A DNA stretch of 64,000 nucleotides from contig NZ_BMKX01000001.1 of assembly GCF_014644555.1 (NCBI RefSeq), forward strand, positions 894,650-958,649, in the 5' to 3' direction. The stretch comes from Glutamicibacter ardleyensis. Its GTDB lineage: Bacteria > Actinomycetota > Actinomycetes > Actinomycetales > Micrococcaceae. The translations under genes and the position numbers were made by a program. Under the pieces are notes generated by a model, which saw nothing but the letters and a program-made list of their open reading frames with translations, made no database searches and had not been told where the DNA came from. The first letter of the stretch is position 1. Each line of letters begins with the position of its first letter. Of this stretch, positions 12,400 through 31,743 are shown piece after piece.

Positions 12400-12864
12400 A
12401 CCGGTAAATCACAGCTGTGGATAAGGCTGTGGATTACATGAAGACAACCTGAGTATAACTAGCACCTCGCGTGTGGACTCAGAAAAGCGTGACACTGAGT
12501 ATCAACAGGACCATGGAACTCAGTGTCACTGCCAGTCACAGTTTGTTCACATGCACAATTGGTTCAAACTATGGGCTCGAGGGGCTTATCCACAGTATCC
12601 ACAGGGGTTATTAACACTACTTCCTTTAAACACTTATTCATCCAAATAACGAGACCTCTCCCCCAGCGCTGGTTTTGAACTGCTTTTTGTTCATAAGCTC
12701 GTGGTTACACACACTTGGAAAGTTCCATGAGGGCTATTCGAAGAAGACGTGGCAAGATTAAGTGGAGATATCGTGTAGCTACCTGCTCTATGCTTAAGAA
12801 CTTGGCGGGAAACAACCTTCTTGGCCTCACTTAAGACTTATGGGTTCCGAAAGGCGGATTTTTC
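12400..12864. other. oriC: Presumed oriC between dnaA and dnaN
   Basis: 465 bp with no coding frame. DnaA boxes: TGTGGATAA (12416-12424, perfect), TGTGGATTA (12428-12436), TTATCCACA (12586-12594, perfect) and, directly abutting, GTATCCACA (12595-12603). The last pair is followed by an AT-rich stretch (about 12607-12655, containing GTTATTAACAC) that is a candidate unwinding element. Between the two box groups is a perfect 12-bp inverted repeat (12489-12500 and 12518-12529). Location between dnaA and dnaN is the usual place of oriC in Actinobacteria. The dnaN promoter must also lie here. Confidence 0.85.
12489..12529. repeat. Perfect 12-bp inverted repeat in oriC
   Basis: GTGACACTGAGT at 12489-12500 and its exact complement ACTCAGTGTCAC at 12518-12529 enclose a 17-base loop. 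It lies 90 bp after the dnaA stop. It has no T-run, so a classical terminator is doubtful; it may be a structural or protein-binding element of the origin. Confidence 0.8.
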
Positions 12865-13992: not shown

Positions 13993-14051
13993 CAACAAGT
14001 TAGTGGTGGAATGCTAAATATTCCACTGCTTCGTAGCTTTCAGGATTCTCG

Positions 14052-15215: not shown

Positions 15216-15735
15216 GGAAGAACTCGACTCGGCCAAGGCGTTGCTCAATCGCATGCGCAAACTTGCCGAAGAGCGTGGTGAAACCAGAATTGACGCTGCC
15301 CGCATGGACCGCGTCAAAAAGCGTCAAGCAACGCGTCGCGGATTCGCTGCGCCGCAGGGTAAACCCGTTGAAGGATCCGCACGCGACCCACATGCTATCG
15401 GTGAAATCGTATCGAGAATGTCCAAATCTCGTGGCTGGAATACTCAAGTTGCGGTTGGATCCGTACTGGGCCGCTGGACAGAATTGGTCGGCGAAGACGT
15501 GGCAGCACATTGCAAGCCCGAGTCTTTTGAAGACACCGTCGTGGTTGTACGCTGCGATTCAACTTCCTGGGCTACACAATTACGCCTACTCAGCCATCAA
15601 ATTTTGAAGAAAATTGATGCAGAGTTAGGTTCGGGAATCGTCACGGTTATCAAGGTTTTGGGCCCCAACGCACCCTCCTGGCGCCACGGCCTGCGTTCGG
15701 TTGCCGGACGAGGCCCGCGAGATACCTACGGATAA
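15208..15735 (+). CDS. DciA-like DUF721 protein (replicative helicase loader candidate)
   Basis: 175 residues. The C-terminal 100 residues form the DUF721/DciA domain ([20 protein letters not shown] through [25 protein letters not shown]). The N-terminal part is basic and low in structure. In Actinobacteria this gene always lies between recF and gyrB. DciA family members are known to assist loading or activity of the DnaB helicase in bacteria that lack DnaC; assigning that role here is by family and position. Confidence 0.88.
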
Positions 15736-16015
15736 AATTGCTGGCACGGCATATGGCGCTGTAACGGAGCCGCTGGCTGGATCCCCCCTTACTGCTCCGC
15801 CAGTAACCGCTCTAAGTGATGATTCTGTGCCTACTACAGCCGATTTGATGCTCAGGATCCCTATATATTTCGCTAAACGCGGTAGAATTAGAGGCAGTGA
15901 GTGCGCGTCGTGTAGGTATCCCCCACGCACGTTGCACCAGACCATGGTTTTTTGTTGGCCCGCACGCAGGGGCGGCAGGGAATCGCGCACCAAATTCGAG
16001 GAGTTCGTAGCACAA

Positions 16016-18073
16016 GTGTCTACCGAAAACGCTTCACCGCAGGAGCCGGCCGAAAGCCAAGTACCCGCGGAATCGATGACTTCAAAAGTCGAACACACCT
16101 ATGGCGCCCAGGACATTACCGTCCTCGAAGGACTCGAAGCGGTACGCAAACGCCCGGGCATGTATATCGGTTCAACCGGACCGCGCGGCCTGCACCACCT
16201 GGTCTATGAAGTTGTTGATAACTCCGTTGATGAGGCTCTTGCAGGCTACTGCGACACTATCGACATCACCTTGCAGAATGACGGCGCTGTCCGAGTTCAG
16301 GACAACGGGCGTGGCATCCCCACAGATATGCACCCGACAGAGGGTAAGCCAGCGGTAGAGGTCGTCATGACGATCCTGCACGCCGGCGGTAAGTTCGGCG
16401 GCGGCGGTTATGCGGTCTCCGGCGGTCTGCACGGCGTAGGTATTTCGGTAGTTAACGCGCTATCTAGCCGCGTGGACACCATCGTTCGGCAAAAGGGTTA
16501 CGCCTGGCGGATCTCCTTCGGCAATGGCGGCATGACTACCTCCCCATTAACCCGTGGCGAAGAAACCGAAGAAACCGGCACCACCCAGACGTTCTACCCG
16601 GACGCCGGAATCTTTGAAACCACAGTATTTGATTTCGAAACCCTGCGTGCGCGTTTCCAGCAGATGGCCTTCCTGAACAAGGGCCTGCGCATCCGTTTGA
16701 CCGACGAGCGTGTGGTTGAAGAGGTTGAGGCTGAGGTCGAAGACGAGCGCGAAAATCAGGTTGTTAAACCACGCGTGGTCGACTACCTGTACAAGGACGG
16801 ACTGCTCGATTACGTCAAGCACCTGAACTCCGCGAAAAAAGTGGAATTGGTACATGACGAGGTCATTGCCTTCGAGGCCGAGGACACCACTCGCGGTATC
16901 AGCGTTGAAGTTGCTATGCAGTGGACCAATGCATACTCGGAGTCTGTGCACACCTACGCAAACACCATCAACACCCACGAGGGTGGTACCCACGAAGAGG
17001 GGTTCCGCGCCGCATTGACCGGCTTGCTTAACCGCTACGCCCGCGATAATAAGATCCTGCGCGAAAAGGATGACAACCTCTCCGGTGATGATGTCCGCGA
17101 GGGTCTGACCGCAGTTCTTTCGGTCAAGCTCTCCGAACCACAGTTTGAAGGCCAGACTAAAACCAAGCTGGGTAACTCGATGGCCCGTGGTTTCGTGCAC
17201 GGTGTGGTCAACGAGGAACTTGGCGACTGGTTCGAGCGCAACCCGAACGTCGCCAAAGACATTATTCGCAAGGCAATGCTTGCCTCCCAAGCCCGAATGG
17301 CGGCCCGCAAGGCGCGTGACAACGCGCGCCGTAAGTCGCCGATGGAATCCTTCGGCATGCCGGGTAAGCTCTCGGACTGTTCCTCAAAGAACCCTGCCGA
17401 GTGTGAGGTTTTCATCGTCGAGGGTGACTCCGCAGGCGGCTCGGCCAAGCGCGGACGCGACCCACACACGCAGGCGATCCTGCCGCTACGCGGAAAGATC
17501 CTGAACGTGGAACGTGCGCGTTTGGACCGTGCGCTGGGCAATGCCGAAGTACAGGCGATGATCACCGCCTTCGGCACCGGCATCGGTGAAGAATTCGACA
17601 TGGCTAAGCTGCGCTATCACAAGATCGTGTTGATGGCGGACGCCGACGTGGACGGCCAGCACATCACCACGCTATTGCTCACGCTGATCTTCCGCTTCAT
17701 GCGTCCACTGATCGAACAGGGCTATGTGTACCTTGCAAGCCCACCGCTGTACCGCATCAAGTGGACTAACGCCGCTCACGAATACGTCTTCACAGACCGT
17801 GAACGCGACGAAGCGCTGGTCAAGGGTGCCGCGTCGAACAAGCGTATTCCTAAGGAAAACGGCATTCAGCGTTACAAGGGTCTGGGCGAGATGGACTACT
17901 CGGAACTGTGGGACACCACGATGGATCCGGCTCACCGCATTCTGCGACAGGTGGCCATGGATGACGCGGCCGCAGCCGATGAGGTCTTCTCCGTGCTGAT
18001 GGGCGAGGACGTCGAATCACGCCGAACCTTTATTCAGCAAAATGCCAAGGACGTGCGCTTCCTGGATATCTAA
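16016..18073 (+). CDS. gyrB: DNA gyrase subunit B
   Basis: 685 residues from the chosen GTG. GyrB hydrolyses ATP to drive negative supercoiling with GyrA. The GHKL ATPase pocket is seen in [18 protein letters not shown] and [14 protein letters not shown], with [15 protein letters not shown]; the TOPRIM domain has [18 protein letters not shown] and [12 protein letters not shown]; the C-terminus ends KDVRFLDI. The frame is open upstream to 15701 inside dciA, but GyrB-like sequence begins only near [18 protein letters not shown] at 16016 has GAGGAG upstream, though 12 bases away. An internal ATG at 16076 is an alternative. Confidence 0.95.
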
Positions 18074-18131
18074 CGCGCCAACCGCAGCGAAACGATAACC
18101 AGCAACGAATTTTAGACTTGTAAGGGATGAA

Positions 18132-20759
18132 ATGAGCGACGAGCAAACCCCGGGGAACGAACCGTTGGACGGGGAGATCGTGCCCGCACTTGAGGGACAC
18201 GACAAGATCGACCAGATCGATCTGCAGACCGAAATGCAGCGGTCCTACCTTGACTACGCCATGGCGGTCATCGTGGGCCGTGCACTACCTGACGTGCGCG
18301 ATGGACTGAAGCCAGTGCACCGCCGCGTGCTGTACGCAATGTACGACGGTGGCTACCGCCCGGAGCGCTCCTACAATAAGTGTGCCCGCGTGGTCGGCGA
18401 AGTGATGGGTCAGTACCACCCGCACGGTGACACCGCGATTTATGATGCGCTGGTCCGCCTGATTCAGGACTGGGTCATGCGTTATCCGCTGGCGCTAGGC
18501 CAGGGTAACTTCGGTTCCCCAGGTAATGATGGCGCTGCCGCCCAGCGTTACACGGAAACCAAGATGGCCCCGTTGGCCATGGAAATGGTCCGTGACATCA
18601 ACGAGGATACCGTTGATTTTAAGGACAACTACGACGGCAAAAACCAAGAACCAACCGTGTTGCCGGCGCGTTTCCCGAACCTGTTGGTCAATGGTTCCTC
18701 GGGCATCGCGGTGGGTATGGCTACCAACATTCCGCCACATAACCTGCGCGAAGTCGCCGAGGGTGTGCAGTGGTACCTGGAGAACCCAGAAGTTACCCGC
18801 GAGGAACTACTTGCCGCGTTAATGCAGCGCGTCAAGGGCCCAGATTTCCCTTCTGGTGCCATGATTCTTGGCACCAAGGGCATCTCCGATGCCTACCGTA
18901 CCGGCCGTGGCTCAATCACCATGCGCGCGGTAGTGAATGTGGAAGAAATTCAGGGCCGCTCCTGCCTGGTAGTCACCGAGCTGCCATATATGGCTAACCC
19001 GGATAACCTCGCGGTAAAGATCGCCGAGCTGGTCCGCGATGGCAAGGTCGCCGGCATCGCCGACATGCGCGATGAGACCTCGGGCCGTACCGGCCAGCGT
19101 CTGGTGATCGTGCTTAAGCGCGACGCCGTGGCCAAGGTGGTACTGAACAACCTCTACAAGCACACCGAACTGCAGTCCAACTTCTCCGCGAATATGCTCG
19201 CGATCGTTGATGGAGTGCCGCGCACCCTGCCACTGGATGGTTTCATCCGCCACTGGGTGACCCACCAGATCGAAGTGATTGTTCGCCGCACCAAATTCCG
19301 TCTGAAGAAGGCCGAAGCCGAGGCTCACATCTTGCGCGGCCTGCTCAAGGCCTTGGATGCTTTGGACGAGGTCATCGCATTGATCCGCCGTTCTTCGACC
19401 ACCGAAGCGGCCCGCGACGGGTTGATGGAACTGCTAGATATTGACGAGGATCAGGCACGCGCCATTCTCGACATGCAGCTACGTCGACTTGCCGCCCTAG
19501 AACGCCAGAAGATTCAGGATCGTCACGCGGAATTGGCGGTGATGATTGCCGAGTTTAAGGAGATCATCGCCGATCCGCAGCGCCAGCGCACCATCGTCTC
19601 GGAAGAACTCGCCGAGATCGTGGAAAAGCATGGAGATGACCGTCGCACCAATATCCTCATGGGCTTTGATGGCGACATGAACGTCGAAGATCTCATTCCC
19701 GAAGAGGAAATGGTCGTCACCATCACCCGTGGCGGCTACGTCAAGCGCACCCGTATTGATAACTACCGTTCGCAGCAGCGCGGCGGTAAGGGTATCAAGG
19801 GAGCCAACTTGCGCGGAGACGATGTGGTGGAACACTTCTTCGTCACCTCCACACACAACTACCTGCTGTTCTTCACCAACCACGGCCGCGTCTACCGCAC
19901 CAAGTGCTACGAATTGGCCGAGGCCGGACGCGATGCCAAGGGACAACACGTAGCCAACGTGATGGCTTTCCAGCCGGATGAGCACATCGCTCAGGTGCTA
20001 GATCTGCGCACCTACCAGGACGCGCAGTACCTAATGCTTGCTACTCGCAATGGTTTGGTCAAGAAAACGCGCTTGGAAGACTATGACACCAACCGTACCG
20101 CCGGAGTGATCGCGATCAACCTGCGCGAAGACGACGAGCTAGTCTCCGCACAGCTGGTCAGTGAATCCGATGATGTGATGCTGGTCTCGCGTAAGGGGCA
20201 ATCGGTACGCTTCACCGCGACCGACACCGCCTTGCGTCCGATGGGGCGCGCTACCAGTGGCGTGACCGGCATGAAGTTCCGCGAGGGTGACGAACTGTTG
20301 GCCGCCGAGGTGGTACGTCCCGAAGCGTTCGTTTTCACCGTGACAAATGAGGGCTACGCGAAGCGCACTACGGTTGATGAATACCGTGTGCAATCCCGTG
20401 GTGGCTTGGGCATTAAGGTTGCGAAGCTCAACGAGGAACGTGGCGAACTGGTGGGTGCGCTAATCGTTGATGAAACCGACGAGGTACTCGTGGTGATGGC
20501 CTCGGGCAAGGTTGTTCGTTCTGCCGTCTCGCAGGTTCCTTCCAAGGGCCGTGACACCATGGGTGTCATCTTCGCAAAGCCGGATAAGAAGGACCACATT
20601 ATTGCGGTGGCCAAGAACTCGGAGACCGAGCTCGAAGAGAATTCGGAGGAAGATGGCGTAACGTTGGACGCAGAAAACATGACAGATGAGTCATCTGCTG
20701 CGCCGGAAATCGCTTCGGACGTCCAAAACGATGACACCAATAACGGAGGTAACGCATGA
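18132..20759 (+). CDS. gyrA: DNA gyrase subunit A
   Basis: 875 residues. GyrA cuts and rejoins DNA; the catalytic tyrosine lies in [12 protein letters not shown]. The quinolone-resistance segment reads [15 protein letters not shown], with threonine at the position of E. coli Ser83. The C-terminal half has the six-bladed pinwheel with the GyrA box [10 protein letters not shown]. The last 45 residues are an acidic tail ([20 protein letters not shown]). It follows gyrB by 58 bp and its ATGA stop/start overlaps the next gene. Confidence 0.97.
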
Positions 20760-21364
20760 GCACGCCCTCGACGCCTCGCCCAAGTGGCAGCGCCCCGAAG
20801 AGCGCAGCGCCGCGACCTACCCAGGTAAAGCGCCCAGCGCCAACCTCGAATGGTAACCGCCCAACTGGTGCCCGACCGGCGCCAACCGGACAGCCACGTC
20901 CTACCGGCGGGCCTGCCCGGCCTAGTGCAGGTGCACCGCGTCCCACCGGACAGCGGCCGCCACAGTCACAGGATCGCCTGGTTCGCCCGGCGCCTAAGGC
21001 TAAGGTCCGTAAAGCTCGACTGTTAGCGTCGAAGGTAGAGCCGTTCTCAGTCTTGAAGCTTGCCTTCTTGCTGTCGGTCGCCTTTGGTGTCATTACCGTG
21101 GTGGCTTCGGTAGCTATCTGGGCCCTGTTGGACCTGACCGGCACCTTTGACTCCTTCAACCAGTTGATGCGTGACGCGATTGGTGCCGAAGGCACTTTTG
21201 ACCTGCGTGATGTGCTCTCGCTGGGCCAGGTTGCCTCGTACGCGACAATCATTGCGGTAGTCAACGTCGTGGTAATTTCGGTACTCTCGATGCTCGGAGC
21301 GGTGTTGTATAACATTGCCGCTTCGCTCGTCGGTGGCGTCGGAGTGACCCTCACAGACGACTAA
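20756..21364 (+). CDS. DUF3566 transmembrane protein
   Basis: 202 residues. The first 80 are a Pro/Ala/Gly/Arg-rich, probably disordered cytoplasmic segment. Two membrane helices follow ([22 protein letters not shown] and a second around [22 protein letters not shown]), separated by a loop containing [12 protein letters not shown]. This is the DUF3566 protein found behind gyrA throughout Actinobacteria; its function is not known. It overlaps gyrA by 4 bp. A long GC-rich hairpin follows. Confidence 0.92.
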
Positions 21365-21373
21365 GAACGTGCT

Positions 21374-21425
21374 AGTCGAGCCCGGGATTCATGCTGTGAT
21401 GCATGACACCCGGGCTCGATTTGTA
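21374..21425 (+). terminator. Hairpin after the gyrA-DUF3566 operon
   Basis: CGAGCCCGGG (21377-21386) pairs perfectly with CCCGGGCTCG (21409-21418), with a weaker inner stem around CATG...CATG. The following ATTTGTATCTT is only moderately T-rich. Likely rho-independent terminator. Confidence 0.7.
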
Positions 21426-21482
21426 TCTTCTTGCAAACCCCGGTAAAGTTTTATTTCGTTCCGAAGGGAACAAAAAAGGTAA

Positions 21483-21556
21483 GGGCGTATAGCTCAGGCG
21501 GTTAGAGCGCTTCGCTGATAACGAAGAGGTCCCTGGTTCAAGTCCAGGTACGCCCA
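21483..21556 (+). tRNA. tRNA-Ile (GAT)
   Basis: 74-nt cloverleaf. GGGCGTA pairs with TACGCCC, the D arm begins AGCTCAGGCGGTTAGAGC, the anticodon loop reads CTGATAA (GAT), and the T arm contains GGTTCAAGTCC. The final CCA is not encoded. It precedes tRNA-Ala, as in most Actinobacteria near gyrA. Confidence 0.97.
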
Positions 21557-21587
21557 CTGAATCCTTACCAATGAGAAAGAGGGTAGA

Positions 21588-21707
21588 ATGAAAAAGCTCC
21601 TGATTCTCGGGACTGTTGTGGCTGCTGCGGTAGTCATAATCAAGAAGGTAAAGGGTTCAACGGAAATCAAGGAAACCTGGCAACAGGTTACCGACAAAGT
21701 TTCCTAA
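21588..21707 (+). CDS. DLW-39 family small protein
   Basis: 39 residues, MKKLLILGTVVAAAVVIIKK followed by VKGSTEIKETWQQVTDKVS. A purine-rich GAAAGAGGG lies just upstream of the ATG. The N-terminal hydrophobic stretch is a single membrane anchor; the rest is a short charged tail. The exact 39-residue length, the composition and the position between tRNA-Ile and tRNA-Ala match the actinobacterial DLW-39 family, although the name-giving DLW end is replaced by DKVS. Function unknown. Confidence 0.82.
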   Translation: MKKLLILGTVVAAAVVIIKKVKGSTEIKETWQQVTDKVS

Positions 21708-21715
21708 CGCTTTTC

Positions 21716-21788
21716 GGGGCCTTAGCTCAGTTGGTAGAGCGCCTGCTTTGCAAGCAGGATGTCAGGAGTTCGAATCTCCTAGGCTCCA
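21716..21788 (+). tRNA. tRNA-Ala (TGC), copy 1
   Basis: 73 nt. The acceptor stem GGGGCCT pairs with AGGCTCC (one G-T pair), the anticodon loop CTTTGCAAG contains TGC, and the T arm contains GTTCGAATC. It starts only 8 bp after the DLW-39 stop codon. Confidence 0.97.
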
Positions 21789-21790
21789 CA

Positions 21791-21832
21791 GAATAGATTG
21801 GCGGAAAGCAGCAGCTTTCCGCCTATTCTTTT
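21791..21832 (+). terminator. Rho-independent terminator after tRNA-Ala copy 1
   Basis: GGCGGAAAG and CTTTCCGCC form a 9-bp stem around CAGCAG, with outer GAATAG/TATTC pairing and a T-rich tail (ATTCTTTT). Confidence 0.8.
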
Positions 21833-21887
21833 CCAAAGGGTGAGCGTTGCTCATTATCGGAAGTGAAAGTCTTCCACAATTGAATAC

Positions 21888-21960
21888 GGGGCCTTAGCTC
21901 AGTTGGTAGAGCGCCTGCTTTGCAAGCAGGATGTCAGGAGTTCGAATCTCCTAGGCTCCA
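21888..21960 (+). tRNA. tRNA-Ala (TGC), copy 2
   Basis: Identical over all 73 nt to the gene at 21716-21788, 99 bp further on. The flanks differ, including separate terminators, so the duplication is confined to the tRNA itself. Confidence 0.97.
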
Positions 21961-21977
21961 CATTTGAAGCAGTTCTA

Positions 21978-22019
21978 AGAGCGGTGATCGACTCAATGAG
22001 TCAGATCGCCGCTCTTTTT
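21978..22019 (+). terminator. Rho-independent terminator after tRNA-Ala copy 2
   Basis: AGAGCGG...CCGCTCT with inner GATC and GACTC/GAGTC pairing, followed by five T. Confidence 0.85.
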
Positions 22020-22068
22020 CATTTACGCTGTTGCGCCCTTAATCCGCAGGATCGCATCTGTTACGCCG

Positions 22069-22586
22069 TCAATAAATTGTTGTACTTCCGAAAGCTCGGA
22101 TCAGGCTAACCAATCCCCAGTGCGCCAACTCGATCCGCCCTGCGACTTGAAGCACCCCGAAGATAGCGTCAATCGCCGCGCCAACTGCGCGGTATGCGGT
22201 GCGGCGTTCACGGTCCAAAGGCTGACAGACTCCGACCGACTCCGCCTCGAGCACACGTGCTTCGCGCTCATCAGACAGAATCGGCTCCAGAGCTGCCATG
22301 ACCATCCTTTGCACACTCTGTCTGACGGACGTCAAAGGGATCAATGTCGAAGCCGGCGAAGCCCTGCAGCACCTTAGAGTAGCTCAGATTTGTCGGCATA
22401 GAGTTCATAGAATGACCTCGTTGAGACGTGCGCCTGACGGCGCACTTCCTGCACCGTCGCAGCGCTGTAGCCCGTCGTTGCATAAGCCTGAAGCGCAGTA
22501 TCCGATAGTTGACGCCGACGCTGTTTATCGCGTTCGCTTTGGTCGCTACCGCGCCACAGTGGAACCTCGTCAGTTAAGTTCTCCAT
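22069..22586 (-). pseudogene. TetR-family regulator, frameshifted
   Basis: The N-terminal TetR helix-turn-helix is intact from ATG at 22586 (RRRQLSDTALQAYATTGYSA, then VQEVRRQAHVSTRSFYELYA), but this frame stops at 22374. TetR-like continuation is found in the other two minus frames: VLQGFAGFDIDPFDVRQ, then SVQRMVMAALEPILSDERE running on to a stop at 22069. At least one and probably two frameshifts therefore separate the DNA-binding part from the ligand-binding part. It is divergent from the flavin monooxygenase with only 31 bp between the starts, which suggests it once repressed that operon. Confidence 0.75.
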
Positions 22587-22617
22587 TCGGCAATCGTTTC
22601 AATGCAATACTCTTCGC

Positions 22618-24021
22618 ATGGCTTACTTCGTGAAACCCGTGCACCGCAGCGCCGCGGTCATGGCACCCATCGCGTGCGATGAATCTTTGCCCAAAACGTG
22701 CGTGATTGGAGCCGGCTCTTCCGGCCTAGCGGCCGCCAAAGCGCTTTACCTTGCAGGTATTCCCTTCGACTGCTTTGAAAAGGGTAGTGAGATCGGTGGC
22801 AACTGGCTCTTGGATAATCCCAACGGTCAGTCTGCTTGCTATCAAAGCCTGGAGATCAATACCTCCTGTCCACGTATGGCATTCTCCGATTTTCCGATGC
22901 CAGCGGACTATCCCGCCTACGCCCGGCATGATCAGGTCCACGCCTACTTCGAGCAGTATGCGGCGCATTTTGGTTTCCGGCATACGATCACTTTCCGCAC
23001 GAACGTAGTTGCGGTAACTAGGACTGAGGATGGACGCTGGAAGGTCGACATTGAGGGGCCCGAAGGCGCCCAGAGTCGTATCTACGAAGCGATACTCGTG
23101 GCAAATGGCCACCATTGGGACCCGCACTGGCCAGAACCCTCCTACCCCGGAACATTTACCGGCGAGCAGATCCATGCCCATGACTACCGCAGCGGCGATC
23201 AGCTAGAGGGCCGTGACCTACTTGTTGTCGGCGCAGGTAACTCGGCGATGGATATTACCGTTGCAGGGGCAGACCGGGCCAAGAGTGCCACACTGTCGAT
23301 TCGCCGTGGTCAGTGGGTGATGCGCAAATTTTTGTTTGGCAAGGCAACCGATCAGATTGCGTTTCCGGGATGGATTCCTTGGTGGGCGACGAGATTACGT
23401 TTGCGTGTTGGGGCACTGGCTTCAGGTGGGCTGAAAAAGTATGGGTTGCCGAAACCGGCGCATGCCCCAGGCCAATCCCACCCCGTGCAATCTGAAGAAA
23501 TCCGCACGCAGATTGCCGCCGGGAAGATTACGGTGCGCCCCGGCATCCGCCGCTTCGATGCGGATCACGTTGAGTTCACCGATGGCACGCGCACTCGAGC
23601 GGATTTGATCGTGTGGGCCATCGGCTATAAGGTCACTTTCCCATTCCTTGATTTCACGGTGATTAACCCCGAAGAAAATGAGCTTGCGCTGTGGAAACGT
23701 ACGGTGCATCCGGACCTGCCAGGACTTTACTTCATTGGGCTGTTACAGCCGGTGGGCGCGGTCATGCCGCTAGCCGAGGCCCAGTCCGCGTGGATTGCTG
23801 ATCTACTCAGTGGCGGATATTTCCCGCCCACTGAGGCGCAGATCCGTAAACAGATGATGACCGATCATGAGCGCAACAAATCCCGATTCTATGAGTCACC
23901 GCGGCACACCATGGAAGTCGACTTTGATTACTTCTTGTGGGATTTAGCCCGCGAGCGTAAGGCAGGCGCGAAGCGTGCGGAAGATAGGAGCAAACACCAT
24001 GAGTTCGTTTCAACTAAATAA
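22618..24021 (+). CDS. Flavin-containing monooxygenase
   Basis: 467 residues. The FAD-binding Rossmann motif GAGSSGLAAAKAL lies near residue 32, the family fingerprint FTGEQIHAHDY near residue 180, and the NADPH motif VGAGNSAMDI near residue 200. Such enzymes use FAD, NADPH and O2 to oxygenate heteroatoms or, as Baeyer-Villiger enzymes, ketones; the substrate here cannot be read from sequence. No clear ribosome site precedes the ATG at 22618; ATG 22660 is an alternative start. The next gene, an SDR, overlaps it by 23 bp, so both probably act in one pathway, formerly under the adjacent TetR. Confidence 0.88.
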   Translation: MAYFVKPVHRSAAVMAPIACDESLPKTCVIGAGSSGLAAAKALYLAGIPFDCFEKGSEIGGNWLLDNPNGQSACYQSLEINTSCPRMAFSDFPMPADYPAYARHDQVHAYFEQYAAHFGFRHTITFRTNVVAVTRTEDGRWKVDIEGPEGAQSRIYEAILVANGHHWDPHWPEPSYPGTFTGEQIHAHDYRSGDQLEGRDLLVVGAGNSAMDITVAGADRAKSATLSIRRGQWVMRKFLFGKATDQIAFPGWIPWWATRLRLRVGALASGGLKKYGLPKPAHAPGQSHPVQSEEIRTQIAAGKITVRPGIRRFDADHVEFTDGTRTRADLIVWAIGYKVTFPFLDFTVINPEENELALWKRTVHPDLPGLYFIGLLQPVGAVMPLAEAQSAWIADLLSGGYFPPTEAQIRKQMMTDHERNKSRFYESPRHTMEVDFDYFLWDLARERKAGAKRAEDRSKHHEFVSTK

Positions 24022-24829
24022 CCGCGTTGTCGCAATCACCGGGGGCGCAAACGGCATCGGCCGGGCGACCGCGAAACTTCTCGCCGAGGCAGGAGCGCGG
24101 ATTGCCATCGGAGACTATGACGTCGAAGCCGCGCGAGCTACGGCCAAGGAGCTCGGTGGAGCCGGTTTCTTTCTGGACGTCACCGATGCGCAATCCTTCA
24201 CCGCATTCCTAGCCGATGTGCAAGGACAGTACGGACCAATCGACATCCTGATCAACAGTGCCGGAGTCATGTGGGTCGGAGAGTTTGAGCAAGAGCCGGA
24301 GTCGGCGTCCAGACGTCAACTCGAGGTGAACCTATTGGGAGTCATCCACGGCATCAAGCTGGCCACTCCAGGCATGCGTGCGCGCGGATCCGGTCACCTC
24401 GTTACCATCGCTTCGGCGGCCTCACTGCTGCCGACCCCCGGAGAGGCGACCTATGCGGCGAGCAAACACGGCGTGCTCGGCTACCTGAAGACAGTACGTG
24501 CAGAGCTACGCGGTAGCGGTATCCATGTTTCGGTGATCATGCCTACCGTCGTTGATACGGCGCTGGCCGCCGGCACAAGCACTGGATCAGCAGCGATGCT
24601 TCAATCTAGCGATATCGCACGAGCTGTCGCCCAAGTCATTGCCCGCCCACGATTTGAGGTCACCGTACCCGGGTACGTCGGTATCCTCCATCGCCTCTTA
24701 AGCCTGTTGCCACAGAGAATGCGAGACCTAATCTTAGGAAAGATGGTCCCTGATCAGGTTGCCTCGGTGGACCGCAAGGCTCGCTCGGACTACGAAGAGA
24801 TTTTCCGACCGGGCCAACCGCCAGCCTGA
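23999..24829 (+). CDS. Short-chain dehydrogenase/reductase (SDR)
   Basis: 276 residues. Cofactor motif TGGANGIGRATAKLLAEAG, NSAG (as ILINSAGVMW), and catalytic serine plus YAASK (residues around ATYAASKHGVLGYL). These are classical SDR features for NAD(P)-dependent alcohol/ketone conversion. The ATG at 23999 follows AGGAG at good spacing; the frame is open slightly further upstream. The C-terminal 50 residues are longer than in the minimal family and hydrophobic (ILHRLLSLLPQRM). It overlaps the upstream monooxygenase by 23 bp and converges on the glycosyltransferase with a 40-bp tail-to-tail coding overlap. Confidence 0.9.
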   Translation: MSSFQLNNRVVAITGGANGIGRATAKLLAEAGARIAIGDYDVEAARATAKELGGAGFFLDVTDAQSFTAFLADVQGQYGPIDILINSAGVMWVGEFEQEPESASRRQLEVNLLGVIHGIKLATPGMRARGSGHLVTIASAASLLPTPGEATYAASKHGVLGYLKTVRAELRGSGIHVSVIMPTVVDTALAAGTSTGSAAMLQSSDIARAVAQVIARPRFEVTVPGYVGILHRLLSLLPQRMRDLILGKMVPDQVASVDRKARSDYEEIFRPGQPPA

Positions 24830-25974
24830 TGGCCACTGCGGACGCGTTCAGAACGCACCGTCCAGTAGCTCTGCAGTAGTTCCTCGCCGATCCGAAACCA
24901 TGATCGGTCTTGAACCTGAGCATGTGCCGCGGAGGCAAAGGCTAGACGCTTGGCGTCATCGTAGATCAGGTCACTGACTCGATCACGAAGCTCGTTGAGG
25001 TCGCCCGGGGCATACAGCCAGCCTGTGCGCGAGGAATCCACCAGATCTAGCGGTCCTCCCCTGCCAACTGCAACGACCGGCACAGCGCAAGCCATGGCTT
25101 CCTGAATGGTTTGGCAGAACGTTTCCGAGGCGCCTGGATGAACAAAAACATCAAACGAGGCAATAACTTCCGCTAACCGGGTTCCGGAAAGGAAGCCGGT
25201 GAAGTGTGCGGTGGGCAAAATGCTACGCAATTCGTCTTCCAGCGGGCCCGAACCCACGATCACAAGTCTTGTATTCGGCAGTGAGCTCAAGACTCGTAGG
25301 TCAGCGACCTGCTTTTCGGCAGCAAGTCGGCCCACATATCCAATAATGCGTTCACCGGTGGGGGCAATAGCCTCGCGGAACTTTGCGTCACGCCGTTGTG
25401 GGGTGAATTGCACGGTGTCCACTCCCCTGCCGCTCAAAACAAGGCGCGTAACGCCCAGAGATTCGAGCTGGCGGCGCGAAAAAGTACTTGGCACCAACGT
25501 TAGGTCTGCAGTCGTGTGAATGGCTCTCACGTGATCCCAAAGCTTTTCGGTTAGCCACGGCATTTTATAGCGCGCGGCATAGGTCGGAACCTCGGTTTGA
25601 TACATGGCAACGGAGGGTATGTTCAGTTCTTGAGCCGCACGTAGGGCACGCCAGCCTAATAAGAATGGGCTAGCCAGGTGCACCACGTCGGGTGCCTCTC
25701 TGGCCAAGATTCTTTTGAGACGGCCAACCCCTCCGGCAGCCAAGCGAACCTCCGGGTAATTAACCATTGCCACAGAGGGAACGGTAATGATCGGAAATCC
25801 CTTATATGAGCGGGGTACGCTGTGGCCCTTGAGCTCACCGGCCAACGAGGCTGCGGGAGTGATGACCACGGCGCTATGGCCGGTCAGCTCAAGATGATCA
25901 AGGGTCCTTAGGACCGAATTTGTAACCCCATTTACGTGGGGTAGGAACGATTCAGCAACGATGGCAACCTTCAC
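24790..25974 (-). CDS. GT4-type glycosyltransferase (GDP-mannose-like mannosyltransferase)
   Basis: 394 residues from the GTG at 25974. N-terminal AIVAESFLPHVNGVTNSVLR and C-terminal GSGPLEDELR, ASFDVFVHPGASETFCQTIQ and GRGGPLDLV are typical of GT4 retaining glycosyltransferases; the E-x7-E region is ETFCQTIQE. Actinobacterial relatives transfer mannose from GDP-mannose to lipid acceptors, but the donor is inferred only. The frame is open to an ATG at 26031; the GTG is chosen because family homology begins there, although neither start has a strong ribosome site. The 3' end overlaps the SDR gene on the other strand. Confidence 0.85.
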   Translation of the reverse strand: MKVAIVAESFLPHVNGVTNSVLRTLDHLELTGHSAVVITPAASLAGELKGHSVPRSYKGFPIITVPSVAMVNYPEVRLAAGGVGRLKRILAREAPDVVHLASPFLLGWRALRAAQELNIPSVAMYQTEVPTYAARYKMPWLTEKLWDHVRAIHTTADLTLVPSTFSRRQLESLGVTRLVLSGRGVDTVQFTPQRRDAKFREAIAPTGERIIGYVGRLAAEKQVADLRVLSSLPNTRLVIVGSGPLEDELRSILPTAHFTGFLSGTRLAEVIASFDVFVHPGASETFCQTIQEAMACAVPVVAVGRGGPLDLVDSSRTGWLYAPGDLNELRDRVSDLIYDDAKRLAFASAAHAQVQDRSWFRIGEELLQSYWTVRSERVRSGHQAGGWPGRKISS

Positions 25975-26280
25975 AACTTCATGATGCGTGCCGCGGGTAA
26001 CGCCGAGCTTAACAAGGCATACTGCGTTCATTAACTTCTCACAACGGAACCGACAAGTCCGTCGAAGAATGAACCAAACCCGGGATCAGATGTTTGTTCT
26101 CGAAGGATTCTCGGGAAGCCAATGTTAGTTCCTCAGGAGGCATAGAATCAATATAAAAAATTACAATAAACTGAATTTGACCAGCATGTATGTCGCTACG
26201 AGGATGTATATCTATAACTTGAGCTTACGCGCTCAGAGGCCCAGTTCAGGCAAGTCACGTAGAGCTTGTAAACTTAGCCG

Positions 26281-27150
26281 GTGACGTTCTTGTTAGCCGC
26301 GTTGGGAATACTCGGCATTTCAGCTTCTGGACCAATTATTGCGGCGTTTCCCGGCGTCCCGGTGATGTCCATGGCGTTTTGGCGCAATGGCGCAGCGGCC
26401 TTGCTCCTCGCAGGCCCGGCGATTAAGGAAAACCCGCGGCAGTACTTACGCTTCACTCGGCGAGAATGGTTTTACATTCTGGTTGCCGGTGGGGCGCTCG
26501 CCTTGCACTTCGTCTGTTTCATGTTTGCGGTCCGAATGACCAGTGTTGCGGCGGCTACCGCCTTGGTTTGTATCCAAGGCGTGTGGATTGCATTGTTTCA
26601 AGCGCTGCGCGGGGTGAGATATCGGTCCCCCGTGATAATCGGAATGAGCACCGCTATCGTTGGCGTTGTACTCATTACGGGTTTTGATTTGGGCCAAGGA
26701 CTTACGGCGTTTATGGGTGACTTGTTAGCCCTTGCCGGTGGGGTACTCGCCGCGATTTATACGTTCGCAGGATCTGCGGCCCGGCGCACCATGAGCACCT
26801 CTCGATATACCTCGATCTGCTATGCCGTTACCGCGGTACTGTTGCTAATCATTTGCCTAGCTACAGGACAGCCTCTGTGGGGATTTGATGCCTGGGGTTG
26901 GGTTGGAATTATTCTGCTGACCGTCTGCGCGCAACTATTCGGGCACACTGCGATGAATCACCTACTCAGTGTGCTGGGGCCATTGACCGTTTCGACCCTG
27001 ATCCTGCTTGAAATTCCCGGTGCTGCGTTGCTCGCCGCATTGCTCTTAGGGCAGGTGGTCCCGGTGGGCACATATATAGGTTTGGGAATCATCTTGCTTG
27101 GACTCGTATTTGTCGTCCGAGGCCAAGCGGCACCAAAACTTAGGGCTTAA
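26281..27150 (+). CDS. EamA/DMT-superfamily transporter
   Basis: 289 residues with about ten hydrophobic helices arranged as two EamA repeats, the second starting near LTAFMGDLLALAGGVLAAIY. These proteins export metabolites or drugs; the substrate is not predictable. The start is GTG at 26281 without a ribosome site. A TAAACT hexamer 7 bases upstream suggests a leaderless mRNA, common in Actinobacteria. The 250 bp upstream are AT-rich. The gene shares its last 4 bases with the convergent small gene 27147-27350. Confidence 0.87.
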   Translation: MTFLLAALGILGISASGPIIAAFPGVPVMSMAFWRNGAAALLLAGPAIKENPRQYLRFTRREWFYILVAGGALALHFVCFMFAVRMTSVAAATALVCIQGVWIALFQALRGVRYRSPVIIGMSTAIVGVVLITGFDLGQGLTAFMGDLLALAGGVLAAIYTFAGSAARRTMSTSRYTSICYAVTAVLLLIICLATGQPLWGFDAWGWVGIILLTVCAQLFGHTAMNHLLSVLGPLTVSTLILLEIPGAALLAALLLGQVVPVGTYIGLGIILLGLVFVVRGQAAPKLRA

Positions 27151-27350
27151 CTTTCCTCGACTAACGTTCGAACCTCAGCTATGTCAGCTTCGCGAGATTC
27201 GACAGGCTGCTGTGGTTCGGAAATTTTTGGTTCATTTTCCCAAGGGTCTTCCACCGGACGGGAAGCTTTCCACATGGCCACGATGAGAGCCACAATTCCT
27301 ACGAACACGCCGAATGCTAAAAATTTTCCTGCTGCACTTTTCTTGCTCAT
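27147..27350 (-). CDS. Small single-pass membrane protein
   Basis: 67 residues: MSKKSAAGKFLAFGVFVGIV, one hydrophobic helix, then a charged C-terminus rich in Glu and Pro. The ATG at 27350 follows GGGAGA. It resembles short one-helix proteins encoded near cyclophilin genes in Micrococcaceae, but I recognise no named family. It overlaps the convergent transporter by 4 bp and is divergent from the cyclophilin gene. Confidence 0.65.
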   Translation of the reverse strand: MSKKSAAGKFLAFGVFVGIVALIVAMWKASRPVEDPWENEPKISEPQQPVESREADIAEVRTLVEES

Positions 27351-27518
27351 GATTTCTCCCTTGTGAATCAATTTTTGTTCCCAGATACCTCCAGACTAGG
27401 CAGTTAGCCGATGTGAGACCAGTGTCCGCGAGTCTGACACCGGTGATGACGTAATTGTTTCACTCAGCGCGTACTTCAGCTTTGGCGGCCTTGGCCCTAC
27501 TCATGGGAGAATGAAGCC

Positions 27519-28064
27519 ATGACCGCAAACGCAACGCATAAAGCCACGATTCACACTACTTTGGGCGACATCGTCGTCGATCTTTTCGGCAACCACGCCC
27601 CGAAGACCGTAAAGAACTTCGTTGGCTTGTCGACCGGTGAGCAGGAATGGGTACACCCAGAGTCCGGTGACAAGAAGACCAACACCCCGCTGTACAGCGG
27701 CACCATCTTCCACCGCATCATTTCTGACTTCATGATTCAGGGTGGCGACCCACTGGGTCAGGGCTTTGGCGGCCCAGGCTACCAGTTCGACGATGAGATC
27801 CACCCAGAACTGAACTTCAACGATCCTTACAAGCTTGCCATGGCAAATGCCGGCATCCGCATGGGTCGTGGAACCAACGGTTCGCAGTTCTTCATCACCA
27901 CCGTTGCAACCTCATGGTTGCAGGGCAAGCACACCATCTTCGGTGACGTAACCGATGCAGAATCCCGCAAGGTTGTTGACGCCTTGAACGCCGTTGCAAC
28001 CGATGGCCGTGACAAGCCATTGGAAGATGTTGTTATCACCTCGGTAGATATCGAGACGCTGTAA
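27519..28064 (+). CDS. ppiA: Peptidyl-prolyl cis-trans isomerase (cyclophilin)
   Basis: 181 residues, cytoplasmic (no signal peptide). Cyclophilin motifs are present: FHRIISDFMIQGGDPLG with the catalytic Arg, NGSQFFITT and WLQGKHTIFGDV. The fold assists proline isomerisation in protein folding. It is monocistronic, ending in a strong terminator. The gene lies in the conserved stretch between the gyrase operon and crgA where actinobacterial ppiA is usually found, followed by a rhomboid protease. Confidence 0.95.
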   Translation: MTANATHKATIHTTLGDIVVDLFGNHAPKTVKNFVGLSTGEQEWVHPESGDKKTNTPLYSGTIFHRIISDFMIQGGDPLGQGFGGPGYQFDDEIHPELNFNDPYKLAMANAGIRMGRGTNGSQFFITTVATSWLQGKHTIFGDVTDAESRKVVDALNAVATDGRDKPLEDVVITSVDIETL

Positions 28065-28080
28065 CTTTCAGTAGTAATAA

Positions 28081-28130
28081 CTGCGGCTCCGGTGATTCCC
28101 TTGGGGAGTCGCCGGAGCCGCAGTTTTTTT
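28081..28130 (+). terminator. Rho-independent terminator after ppiA
   Basis: CTGCGGCTCCGG pairs with CCGGAGCCGCAG around a small loop that itself can pair, followed by seven T. Confidence 0.92.
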
Positions 28131-28162
28131 AAACCACCACGATGAGATCAAGGTAGAAACAG

Positions 28163-29005
28163 ATGTCTTACGGTCAAGTGACTCCCGCGGGGCAGTCGGC
28201 TCCAAGCTGCTATAGACACCCAGGAACGGTCTCATATGTGTCCTGCAATCGATGCGGCCGTCCGGTATGCCCTCAATGTCAGGTGCCGGCTCCCGTGGGA
28301 GTGCAGTGCGTCGAATGCGTCCATGAAGCGAATAAGAAGATCCCTTCTCAGCGGACCGAATTTGGTGCGCGGGCGCGCCAAGGTGTCCCGATAATTACTT
28401 ATTCACTGATTGCGGTGAACGTTCTCGCCTACATTCTTCAATGGGTGGTCCCGGCGGCCACTGGCTACATGTACTTGGTCCCTATGTGGGCGGATTCAGA
28501 ACCATGGCGCTTGATCACCAGTGCGTTCGCGCACTCCAGGGGCTCTATCTTTCATCTAGCGATGAATATGTACGGCATTTATCTCTGTGGAGTTTTCCTC
28601 GAGCCGCGACTGGGTCGCGCACGCTTTAGCTGGCTTTATCTACTGAGCACCTTGGGTGGATCCTTGGGTATTCTCCTGCTGAGTCCCCCACTGAGCGCTA
28701 CTCTGGGTGCCTCGGGCGCTCTCGCAGGGCTCTTCTTATCCCTCTTCGTAGTTTTCCGCACCAACAAGCAAGTCCTACGTCAGATGGCCATTGTTCTAGT
28801 ACTCAATGTGGTGCTCGGATTTGTGGTCTCGGGTATTTCTTGGCAGGGACACCTCGGTGGTGCTGTCGTTGGCGCACTGGCGGCCGCTTGCATTGTGTTG
28901 GTGCCACGTAATCCACAACGTACGAAGATTCAATTCTCTTTGTTGGGTGTCTTGACGATAGTTGTGGCAGTAGCGATATATCTTGCGGCTGTGGCCGTGA
29001 AGTAG
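28163..29005 (+). CDS. Rhomboid-family intramembrane serine protease
   Basis: 280 residues. An N-terminal zinc-finger-like segment has four Cys pairs (CNRCGRPVCPQC, VQCVEC), then six to seven membrane helices. The catalytic serine is in GASGALAGL, the histidine in WQGHLGGAVVGAL, and HLAMNMYGIYLCG supplies the oxyanion-side residues. Rhomboids cleave other membrane proteins within the bilayer. The gene occupies its usual actinobacterial place after ppiA. Its stop is followed by the DnaA-box-rich intergenic region. Confidence 0.93.
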   Translation: MSYGQVTPAGQSAPSCYRHPGTVSYVSCNRCGRPVCPQCQVPAPVGVQCVECVHEANKKIPSQRTEFGARARQGVPIITYSLIAVNVLAYILQWVVPAATGYMYLVPMWADSEPWRLITSAFAHSRGSIFHLAMNMYGIYLCGVFLEPRLGRARFSWLYLLSTLGGSLGILLLSPPLSATLGASGALAGLFLSLFVVFRTNKQVLRQMAIVLVLNVVLGFVVSGISWQGHLGGAVVGALAAACIVLVPRNPQRTKIQFSLLGVLTIVVAVAIYLAAVAVK

Positions 29006-29061
29006 CCGCTAAGTTAATTCGAACTCTTCTGCGTCTAGTTATCCACAAGTATTATCCACAC

Positions 29062-29083
29062 TGTTAATAACTTACAACCATGT
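29062..29083 (+). repeat. 22-bp direct repeat, copy 1
   Basis: Begins TGTTAATAACTTACAACC and is perfectly repeated at 29327-29348. Each copy is preceded within two bases by a DnaA box (TTATCCACA here, TAATCCACA in copy 2), so the real duplicated unit is about 32 bp with two or so differences. Confidence 0.9.
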
Positions 29084-29326
29084 AACTCGCATCTGGGTAG
29101 CGATGGGACACCCCTTAGACGCCCATGATTTCGTGGATATGCCACTTCCGGCATCGAATACTCACAGCTTTACCCACAATTGTGGATAACTTTTAAACAG
29201 GCCCTGTAGATAGCCTTATTCCGAGACCCTGTGCCGATCCGTTTAGTTGTTCGAATTTTTAAACGAATCTCTGATATCTGTCGACTGAGTCACCATAAAG
29301 AAGATGTCCACACGCGTAATCCACAG

Positions 29327-29348
29327 TGTTAATAACTTACAACCATGT
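29327..29348 (+). repeat. 22-bp direct repeat, copy 2
   Basis: Identical to 29062-29083, 265 bp downstream, again behind a DnaA-box-like 9-mer. The GTGTTAATAAC part also occurs inverted in oriC (12607-12617) next to a DnaA box. Confidence 0.9.
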
Positions 29349-29511
29349 CATTCAACAACATGCAATTGGCGCTGACTTGGAATAATGAATAGTTTATACA
29401 GCCCCTGCTCACCTTATCCCCACCTGTGGATAAAGTTGTGAACAAGTAAATAAGAACGTTCTCCACAAGGTGTGTGGATAACCTGTTAATACTGTGGATA
29501 TCTCACACTCT

Positions 29512-30126
29512 TTACAAAAAGAGCGGTCGAATCAGCAACACCGCAAAAATGGTCATAAAGATGCAAATGATCGCATCCAGAATGCGCCAGGACGTGGCGC
29601 TTGCGAAAATGCGGGACAAGAATCTGGAAGCATAACCAAGTGCCGTGAACCAACAGATGCTGGCCGCAATTGCACCGAGTGCGAAATACCATTTACCGTC
29701 GTGCTGTGCGACTGCTACGGAACCGAGCAGAATAACCGTGTCTACGTAAACATGCGGATTAAGCCAAGTCAGAGATAAAGCGGTCAGCGCAACCGTCCAT
29801 TTGACGGTCGGTGCTGGAGAATTTGAAGTGCTTAGAATGCCAGGGGAGACCGCACGCTTTAGCGCAAGGATGGAGTAGCACAGCAGGAAAATAAAGCCAC
29901 CAATCCGTGCATAAGTGAGGATCCACGGAGCGTGCTCAACGAGGGTGCCGATACCCATGACCCCGGCCAAAATTAGTACTACGTCTGACGCCGCGCAAAT
30001 CACGACGGTGAGCAACACGTGTTCTCGTCTGATCCCTTGACGCAGCAGGAACGCGTTCTGGGATCCAATGGCGATGATGAGCGAAAGTCCTGTGGAGAAT
30101 CCAAGGAATATTGGTGCGGGGATCAT
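29512..30126 (-). CDS. LysE/ArgO-family basic amino-acid exporter
   Basis: 204 residues with five to six membrane helices. The LysE family start GLSLIIAIGSQNAFLLRQG is clear, and LTWLNPHVYVDTVILLGS is the second signature. LysE/ArgO proteins export lysine and arginine and related analogues. The gene is divergent from the LysG-like regulator at 30198, the standard exporter-regulator arrangement. Its 3' end abuts the DnaA-box cluster. Confidence 0.93.
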   Translation of the reverse strand: MIPAPIFLGFSTGLSLIIAIGSQNAFLLRQGIRREHVLLTVVICAASDVVLILAGVMGIGTLVEHAPWILTYARIGGFIFLLCYSILALKRAVSPGILSTSNSPAPTVKWTVALTALSLTWLNPHVYVDTVILLGSVAVAQHDGKWYFALGAIAASICWFTALGYASRFLSRIFASATSWRILDAIICIFMTIFAVLLIRPLFL

Positions 30127-31082: not shown

Positions 31083-31104
31083 GGGAGAGTCGGCGGTAGG
31101 CCGA

Positions 31105-31150
31105 TTCCCGGACGAGGGAGCCGTACCCGGAACGATAGCTAAGACGGCCA
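31105..31150 (+). promoter_or_regulatory. Guanidine-III (ykkC-III) riboswitch
   Basis: CCGGACGAGG (31108-31117), then GCCGTACCCGG and, 13 bases later, ACGGC (31144-31148). This reproduces the compact guanidine-III aptamer: CCGG pairs with CCGG, and GCCGT pairs with the downstream ACGGC to close the pseudoknot. The order, the invariant ACGAGG and the GUACCCGG agree with the known actinobacterial structure as I remember it. The next gene is a small multidrug-resistance-type guanidinium exporter, the classical target. The ribosome site AAGG follows within a few bases, which suggests translational control. Confidence 0.9.
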
Positions 31151-31164
31151 GTAAGGTATCTGGC

Positions 31165-31485: not shown

Positions 31486-31743
31486 CTATTTCCAGCCAGT
31501 TGTCATGAAGAAACCAACCATGGCAATACCAAAGCCAATGACAATGTTCCATCCGCCAATATTTGGGATCGGGAACAGGGTCTGCGAAATGTAATAAACG
31601 ATAATCCAGACCAGACCCAGTAGCATCAATCCAAACATCACTGGCTTGTACCAGCTTGGCATGGGCTTATCCGCGGCATGTGTGCCCGGTGCGACCTGCT
31701 GGGTCTGTGGTTTGTTCTTGCGTCGTGGCTTAGACTCCGGCAC
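31486..31743 (-). CDS. crgA: Cell-division protein CrgA
   Basis: 85 residues: a basic N-terminal tail (MPESKPRRKNKPQ), then two membrane helices (WYKPVMFGLMLLGLVWIIVYY and a second around NIVIGFGIAMVGFFMTTGWK). The PNIGGWN loop is typical of CrgA, which acts at the actinobacterial division septum with FtsZ and penicillin-binding proteins. The start is GTG (31743) with GGAG 8 bases upstream. It lies in the conserved rhomboid-crgA-sortase neighbourhood. Confidence 0.94.
   Translation of the reverse strand: MPESKPRRKNKPQTQQVAPGTHAADKPMPSWYKPVMFGLMLLGLVWIIVYYISQTLFPIPNIGGWNIVIGFGIAMVGFFMTTGWK

Follow-up and report, generated by a model that had tools for sequence, protein, structure and literature searches.

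Clusters of DnaA boxes near oriC are a known kind of element. In S. coelicolor and B. subtilis they repress untimely initiation, according to PMC4585315, in which the oriC-proximal clusters of B. subtilis (Okumura et al. 2012) have a negative effect on initiation. The same paper treats E. coli datA, a group of DnaA boxes in non-coding DNA at a distance from oriC, as limiting ATP-DnaA, and datA works with a second DNA-binding protein, IHF (PMC10950094). The locus described here, a non-coding gap about 16 kb from the dnaA–dnaN origin of Glutamicibacter ardleyensis, can be compared with each of these systems. The distance between datA and oriC is far larger than that between cluster and oriC here, and E. 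coli DARS1 and DARS2 contain DnaA boxes together with nucleoid-protein sites. The S. coelicolor clusters are reportedly those that Smulczyk-Krawczyszyn et al. named H69, H24 and D78 in 2006, and removal of D78 is said to have raised initiation; we know of no partner palindrome in these clusters. To our knowledge, the limiting of DnaA is much less understood in Actinomycetes than in E. coli.

In position, the locus resembles the S. coelicolor clusters, which likewise lie near oriC, and the Streptomyces gaps analysed here carry boxes at the same place between the rhomboid gene and crgA. As crgA reportedly lies on cosmid H69, this gap may correspond in position to the H69 cluster, which is our guess. 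The B. subtilis clusters are also near oriC but belong to a different phylum. With datA the locus has in common a non-coding DnaA-box cluster outside oriC; the partner site in datA is that of IHF, whereas here it is a conserved palindrome of a putative partner. The likeness to DARS1 and DARS2 lies in the combination of DnaA boxes with another predicted protein site. As far as the accessible text of the open-licence literature goes, no description of a DnaA-box cluster at rhomboid or crgA was found, nor was the palindrome string found in that literature. Within these bounds, what is new is the class-wide rhomboid–crgA place, the palindrome with its phasing, and the presence of an oriC motif in Micrococcaceae-type loci.

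The features of the locus are collected in Table 1, in which the window is the whole 64-kb stretch analysed. Pfam matches agree with the genes proposed by the initial annotation as flanks, rhomboid and lysE, and since these are convergent, the gap is bounded by two 3′ ends and holds neither promoter. A terminator or RNA element was considered and rejected: no terminator-like site was found in the gap, and a comparison with Rfam gave no match at the gathering score. Promoter-like sites are not in excess either (1 found, 1.7 expected). Five perfect and five one-mismatch boxes, together spanning 29039-29501, were counted where the initial annotation had reported five perfect boxes and at least four near matches. 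Its statement that left boxes point right and right boxes point left is true of the perfect ones (++---). The presumed oriC contains the two perfect boxes claimed for it (12416, minus strand; 12586, plus strand) and two with one mismatch. The 64-kb window as a whole has 7 perfect TTATCCACA, where shuffles expect 0.27 and reach a maximum of 3.

Table 1. DnaA boxes, repeats and neighbouring features of the locus (positions in the window unless a genome handle is given; G000 is the home genome, other G and L handles are further genomes and loci)
Feature	Position	Strand	Remark
Non-coding gap with composite DnaA-box cluster	29006..29511	.	Between convergent rhomboid and lysE; footprint alignment
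Rhomboid gene	28163-29005	+	Rhomboid PF01694 (Pfam match)
lysE	29512-30126	-	LysE PF01810 (Pfam match)
crgA, 2 kb beyond the lysE side of the gap	31486..31743	-	Neighbour of the cluster in most other genomes examined
Perfect DnaA box 1 (TTATCCACA)	29039..29047	+	One mismatch in L035, L037, L038
Perfect DnaA box 2	29052..29060	+	Perfect in L031-L038 too
GTTAATAAC motif copy 1, common to oriC	29063..29071	+	
Palindrome copy 1, ACTTACA-ACCA-TGTAACT	29070..29087	.	12/14 positions of AATTACA-N4-TGTAATT
One-mismatch DnaA box (TTACCCACA), aimed at next box	29170..29178	+	
Perfect DnaA box 3, then conserved block CTTTTAAACA	29181..29189	-	Perfect in L031-L038 too
One-mismatch DnaA box (TAATCCACA), ahead of repeat copy 2	29317..29325	+	
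GTTAATAAC motif copy 2	29328..29336	+	
Palindrome copy 2, ACTTACA-ACCA-TGTCATT	29335..29352	.	12/14 positions
One-mismatch DnaA box (TTATCCCCA), aimed at next box	29414..29422	+	
Perfect DnaA box 4	29425..29433	-	Perfect in L031-L038 too
One-mismatch DnaA box (TTCTCCACA)	29459..29467	+	
Perfect DnaA box 5	29473..29481	-	One mismatch in L035, L037, L038
One-mismatch DnaA box (ATATCCACA)	29493..29501	-	
Presumed oriC (dnaA–dnaN gap)	12400..12864	.	GTTATTAAC at 12607-12615 directly after two DnaA boxes
dnaB cluster	G000:C1:850800-851080 (L005 1430-1840, L260)		Four perfect and eight one-mismatch boxes
TATTACAAGTATGTCATT sites	G000:C6:243671, G225:2574614, G239:C7:29293, G008:C1:483222, G168:C63:59107, G182:1050242, G253:C3:283567		

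Two of the boxes are followed by the 22-bp repeat already noticed in the initial annotation, TGTTAATAACTTACAACCATGT (29062-29083 and 29327-29348), which lies within a 52-nt repeat 83% identical between its copies and contains both GTTAATAAC, of the GTTAWTAAC type, and the palindrome. Its part GTGTTAATAAC does recur inverted beside a box in oriC, as GTTATTAACAC from 12607. Two further observations concern other parts of the window. Upstream of dnaA, positions 10676-10855 hold five one-mismatch DnaA boxes, the last overlapping an ORF start, which possibly serve dnaA autoregulation or a bipartite origin. At 31084-31152 there is a guanidine-III riboswitch (Rfam RF01763, 40.2 bits), and the ORF behind it resembles, by eye, a small multidrug-resistance-type transporter.

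At the scale of the home genome (3.94 Mb), 42 perfect TTATCCACA occur and the gap cluster is the sole group of five; the rhomboid-side cluster is the largest group of perfect boxes in G225 as well. The runner-up in the home genome consists of four perfect boxes in 281 bp upstream of dnaB, ∼56 kb from oriC on the opposite (left) side to the rhomboid gap. This second place is conserved too. With dnaB placed in 80 genomes and upstream boxes counted in 70 of them, perfect boxes number 71 in the 1 kb upstream of dnaB and 3 in the remaining 300 kb, and at least one box with up to one mismatch occurs in 67/70 (none in L241, L280 and L287). Because these boxes lie on the promoter side, dnaB is likely a DnaA-controlled gene, so that DnaA sites near oriC also serve transcription; the rhomboid–crgA gap holds no promoter. 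In the Streptomyces-type genome G023, among the matches listed, the rhomboid–crgA gap has three perfect boxes, fewer than the four at G023:C1:4406103-4406414 (L311), ∼100 kb from oriC. This L311 cluster may be the D78 cluster mentioned above. As a separate matter, the 1.3-kb dnaB match spans 1.7-3.8 kb in one open frame in 25 of the 80 genomes, which suggests inteins in their dnaB (e.g. G060:C1:36276-40118).

The presence of the cluster in relatives, a check proposed with the initial annotation, was examined in loci selected by a gyrA scan, in which the best 80 of 581 relatives gave the named loci L031-L110, many of them spanning oriC and the rhomboid region. The best gyrA matches came from Arthrobacter sp. 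MYb229 (96%) and from named species of Glutamicibacter (91-93%), which makes the window Glutamicibacter-like. A rhomboid match was obtained in 34 of the 36 loci L031-L066, and when the 500-bp windows of a locus were ranked by their count of boxes carrying no more than one mismatch, the first in the list fell within about 750 bp downstream of the rhomboid gene in 31/34, the exceptions being L039 and L065 (ties) and L061. Glutamicibacter-type loci have lysE beside the cluster. In Pseudarthrobacter-type loci no lysE was found, and these carry the cluster too, so that it does not depend on lysE and the reading that it belongs to this gene is rejected. Alignment of the gap between the window and L031-L038 gave an identity to the window of 89% in box columns (108) and 49% outside them (398). 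All nine sequences keep perfect boxes at 29052, 29181 and 29425, and the boxes at 29170, 29317, 29414, 29459 and 29493 vary among them. As judged from this alignment, box conservation is that of a footprint, not of drift.

For the wider survey, crgA (PF06781) served as anchor; it is present in 128/129 genomes from the order and 126/128 from the class, which we take to be Actinomycetes. The crgA regions of 99 genomes were compared, hand-picked, mostly one per genus, with seven from genus g6, taken as Streptomyces because the gap of L239, one of the seven, is the same as that of the named Streptomyces locus L109. Rhomboid and crgA are convergent with a gap of 20-1500 bp in 69 of the 99. Perfect TTRTCCACA boxes number 80 in the 29,151 bp of these 69 gaps and 16 in the remaining 927,749 bp of the loci; this outside DNA is mostly coding, and if all 16 boxes are put into an assumed intergenic tenth the gaps are still ∼16 times denser. 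First-order Markov resamples of the gaps expect 0.24 perfect boxes. A perfect box is present in 45 gaps and absent from 24, while a box with at most one mismatch occurs in 65 (6.7 expected), the four gaps without being those of L154, L155, L187 and L198.

The other 30 loci lack the rhomboid gene or have it inverted, at a distance above 1.5 kb or at one below 20 bp. In 22 of them a box lies near the rhomboid 3′ end (up to 1000 bp) or the crgA 3′ end (up to 500 bp); the lone one-mismatch boxes among these, in L171, L205 and L215, may be due to chance. The palindrome is present in 18 of the 30. The boxes follow rhomboid only or mainly in nine loci (L141, L142, L145, L146, L162, L165, L173, L190 and L191) and crgA in other rearranged loci (e.g. 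L199, L202, L204, L235 and L236); eight have no box near either gene (L144, L149, L158, L170, L179, L210, L211 and L217). Altogether, a box is present in 87 of the 99 loci, and 12 have none near rhomboid or crgA. Since the array is kept at the 3′ end of one gene or the other in many rearranged loci, it moves as a unit and is tied to no one gene. The locus is an oriC-proximal DnaA-box cluster, denser than chance and outside but near oriC, and the density over shuffles, the class-wide gaps and the footprint conservation rule out that its boxes are merely incidental.

These observations bear on the idea that DnaA and a partner act on the transcription or 3′ ends of rhomboid and crgA, or on transcription into lysE. 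A link to division would be plausible, as crgA is a cell division protein gene and the palindrome is also found upstream of whiB-like genes (see below). Regulation of the neighbouring genes nonetheless seems quite improbable for a gap at convergent 3′ ends that has no terminator-like site and no excess of promoter-like sites, and for a cluster that follows rhomboid in some genomes, crgA in others, and is not beside crgA here.

The motif common to oriC raises another question, namely whether the cluster is itself an origin. Copies of GTTAATAAC/GTTATTAAC in the window and 34 named loci number 62 in the 41.3 kb that follow rhomboid and 33 in 19.4 kb of dnaA–dnaN gap (once in 33/35 loci), with zero in the 440 kb between dnaN and rhomboid. 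It is absent from 13 kb upstream of dnaA, from the dnaB cluster of the home genome, and from six of the 35 clusters (L050, L053, L056, L064, L065 and L066). The home genome has 11 copies of GTTAWTAAC, 3 of them in oriC and the cluster and 8 elsewhere, and G225 has 5, two of them in oriC and the cluster. A general regulator site is unlikely, given 11 copies in 3.94 Mb against 35 for the reversed string. In oriC, two DnaA boxes and a short spacer rich in G precede the motif, behind which comes a conserved AT-rich stretch, the expected place of an unwinding element.

A second or conditional initiation region built of oriC-like parts would account for this motif in common, and also for the ease of melting, which is about that of oriC over 30-50 bp: the 30-bp minima fall in the lowest 0.05% of the window at the cluster (29047) and the lowest 0.03% at oriC (12608), so that DnaA boxes stand beside an easily melted stretch in the cluster as in an origin. 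Strand composition does not mark the cluster as the main start. The cumulative GC-skew minimum lies 2.0 kb to the right of oriC in G000 (204 kb read) and 1.7 kb to its right in G225 (400 kb read), and no skew switch is seen at the cluster in either; G182 (200 kb read) is ambiguous, with the skew lowest 60 kb to the left of oriC and a local positive turn near the cluster. The genes that lie between oriC and the cluster (12900-29000 in the window) have a four-fold-site skew of lagging type in G000 (P 0.004 when set against leading genes) and in G182 (P 0.03), as a second start would predict, and of leading type in G225. The low values in the first two come partly from genes such as dnaN and the gyrase genes, where codon preference is a likely cause. 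Initiation at the cluster is very improbable in our estimation. The initial annotation, which had offered control of DnaA and a second initiation region side by side, is supported as to the kind of locus and finds no support as to a second main start: the main initiation may be placed at dnaA–dnaN, and a minor or conditional role for the cluster is conceivable. The palindrome, the wide distribution and the sister cluster at dnaB go beyond what that annotation had noticed.

A comparison of 8-mers between the 69 gaps and their flanks brought out, besides box words, GAATTACA and AATTACAC, in 12 genomes each and never outside the gaps. Both belong to the inverted repeat TTACA-N4-TGTAA, which has 10 copies, spread over 8 gaps, and does not occur in the 929 kb outside; spacings of 2, 3, 5 and 6 give no copies. 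Extended to AATTACA-N4-TGTAATT, the palindrome matches at 11/14 positions or more 57 times in 48/69 gaps (0.03 expected) and once in 929 kb outside; at 12/14 or more, there are 37 matches in 32 gaps and none outside. As the palindrome was found on the same 69 gaps, these counts are partly circular, and the named loci and a genome-wide count serve as a check, although genera overlap between the sets. In the window and named loci, 35/35 clusters have it at 12/14 or more. The 21 gaps without it include seven Streptomyces-type ones, which all carry a conserved variant, TCA[CT]A[CT]CGGCGTCAA (7/7). In the 824.5 kb of L072-L110, which are mostly Streptomyces with many not reaching the gap, this variant has four copies, each directly downstream of rhomboid. 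Neither form is found in 14/69 gaps. The palindrome is not a part of every DnaA locus: at 11/14 or more it is rare at dnaB loci (2 in 370 kb; best match in the home dnaB cluster 9/14) and in oriC (5/78 named loci), while upstream of dnaA it occurs in 18/78, with DnaA boxes beside it. In G182, a palindrome site (G182:C1:3333544-3333561) lies beside the oriC DnaA boxes, unlike in most relatives.

The DnaA boxes of the gaps are phased at ∼12, 23 and 35 bp from the palindrome centre. None of the 57 palindromes is farther than 40 bp from the centre of a DnaA box, where random placement in the same gaps puts a mean of 30.3 and a maximum of 40 palindromes that near (2000 runs). At 21.5-24.5 or 33.5-36.5 bp, 63 boxes are directed towards a palindrome (random mean 6.0, maximum 15, 2000 runs), and at 11.5-12.5 bp, 28 are directed away from one (random mean 1.5, maximum 7); the distances were picked after seeing the data, and since the genomes are related the counts are not independent events. 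In the window and named clusters, a box is at -23 for 52 of 62 palindromes and at -36 for 44. The steps come close to a single turn of the DNA, which suggests that a fixed complex sits along one helical face.

Twelve genomes, most of them chosen for a good gap match, were searched whole for the palindrome with up to two mismatches. It occurs 2 to 6 times per genome, 52 times in all, against a single occurrence of the reversed control, and the rhomboid–crgA gap is among the sites in 11 of the 12 (exception G151). The home genome has 7 sites, two of which are the cluster repeats; with 2 for its reversed control, the other five may be partly due to chance. Nothing more specific than these few copies per genome speaks against a chromosome-organisation site, in which DnaA and a partner would anchor or bridge the DNA of the origin domain. 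An array near oriC with a possible nucleoid-protein link would suit such a role, which we consider highly unlikely. The context of sites was read for part of the 52 (L356-L373). Five genomes carry the palindrome upstream of a whiB-like gene (L361, L362, L368, L370 and L371), three of them between whiB and a divergent cofD, and at two sequenced sites it is upstream of a DUF3263 gene (L358 and L364). Further sites outside the gap are those of L356, L359, L372 and L373, the last near genes taken by eye for nrdI and nrdE, with a perfect box ∼80 bp off. The seven whiB-like and napA sites read in sequence have no DnaA box within 1.5 kb, so that the palindrome does not arise merely as a companion of such boxes. 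Its rarity genome-wide and its recurrence elsewhere without DnaA boxes argue that a separate protein probably binds it. A different kind of site is the identical string TATTACAAGTATGTCATT (either strand), a two-mismatch match to the palindrome present in seven genomes (Table 1), which more likely lies inside a conserved gene or RNA than represents a binding site.

The regulators MtrA and FtsR do not fit the palindrome. The MtrA motif is a direct repeat with a GTnAC-like half-site (PMC6265350), which differs from an inverted repeat found with N4 only, and FtsR recognises a different 25-bp repeat (PMC6683498). One candidate partner is the DUF3263 product, which scores 146 bits against the NCBIfam model of the nucleoid-associated protein NapA, under its cut-off of 160. 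The family, to which mycobacterial NapA belongs, is present in 32/32 genomes searched, and the palindrome is found 69-156 bp upstream of the DUF3263 match in 5/15 (G133, G182, G253, G225 and G239) and absent there in 10/15, home genome included. A preference of NapA for AT-rich DNA is reported in a review (PMC7177045), and two DUF3263 relatives in the PDB are named Fis family transcriptional regulator (9n2n and 9n2g). It is on these grounds, a site at its own gene in some genomes, ubiquity in the genomes searched, AT-rich preference and Fis-named relatives, that DUF3263/NapA becomes a candidate; it may equally be a target only.

The Fis-named relatives also speak for a DARS-like locus, in which the array would bind ADP-DnaA and the partner would aid nucleotide release, raising ATP-DnaA. 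The DnaA cycle of E. coli involves IHF and Fis (PMC10380432), and at the locus here DnaA boxes stand at fixed spacing around the predicted site of another protein. Closeness to oriC suits a post-initiation sink at least as well, and we regard reactivation of DnaA as unlikely.

The function we favour, and consider rather probable from the conserved sites and their spacing, is that of a replication-control locus in which a DnaA array, phased with a second, dimeric protein at the palindrome, would lower DnaA after initiation. That the locus is of the DnaA-control kind is supported by its position across the class sample, footprint conservation, non-promoter site and the published precedent in S. 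coelicolor and B. subtilis. Lying ∼16 kb from oriC, the array would be copied soon after the forks leave; once doubled, it would take up DnaA and lower the free (or ATP-bound) form just after initiation, so that the next initiation would be delayed. The putative partner at the palindrome would switch or stabilise the array and set its strength. Pure titration is weakly served by arrays that in many genomes are small (one to three boxes), 24/69 gaps having no perfect box. The 12 loci with no box near either gene, the conserved boxes at the dnaB promoter and the larger perfect-box group of G023 also count against the favoured function.

A broader proposal, rather unlikely in all its parts, is that the locus would be the class-wide actinobacterial counterpart of datA/DARS, and that the palindrome would be read by a dedicated regulator with a sparse regulon (whiB-like genes, napA and, in some clades, dnaA), maybe NapA/DUF3263, which would then act at its own promoter as well as at the array of DnaA boxes. 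If this is true of NapA/DUF3263, one protein would couple DnaA availability with division and nucleoid state. The candidate co-regulated genes would tie replication to division. A DnaA array kept at one gene junction in most of the class-wide sample and phased around a palindrome offers a concrete DNA target for finding the regulator, and the arrangement shared by many related bacteria points to a common brake or timer of DNA replication.
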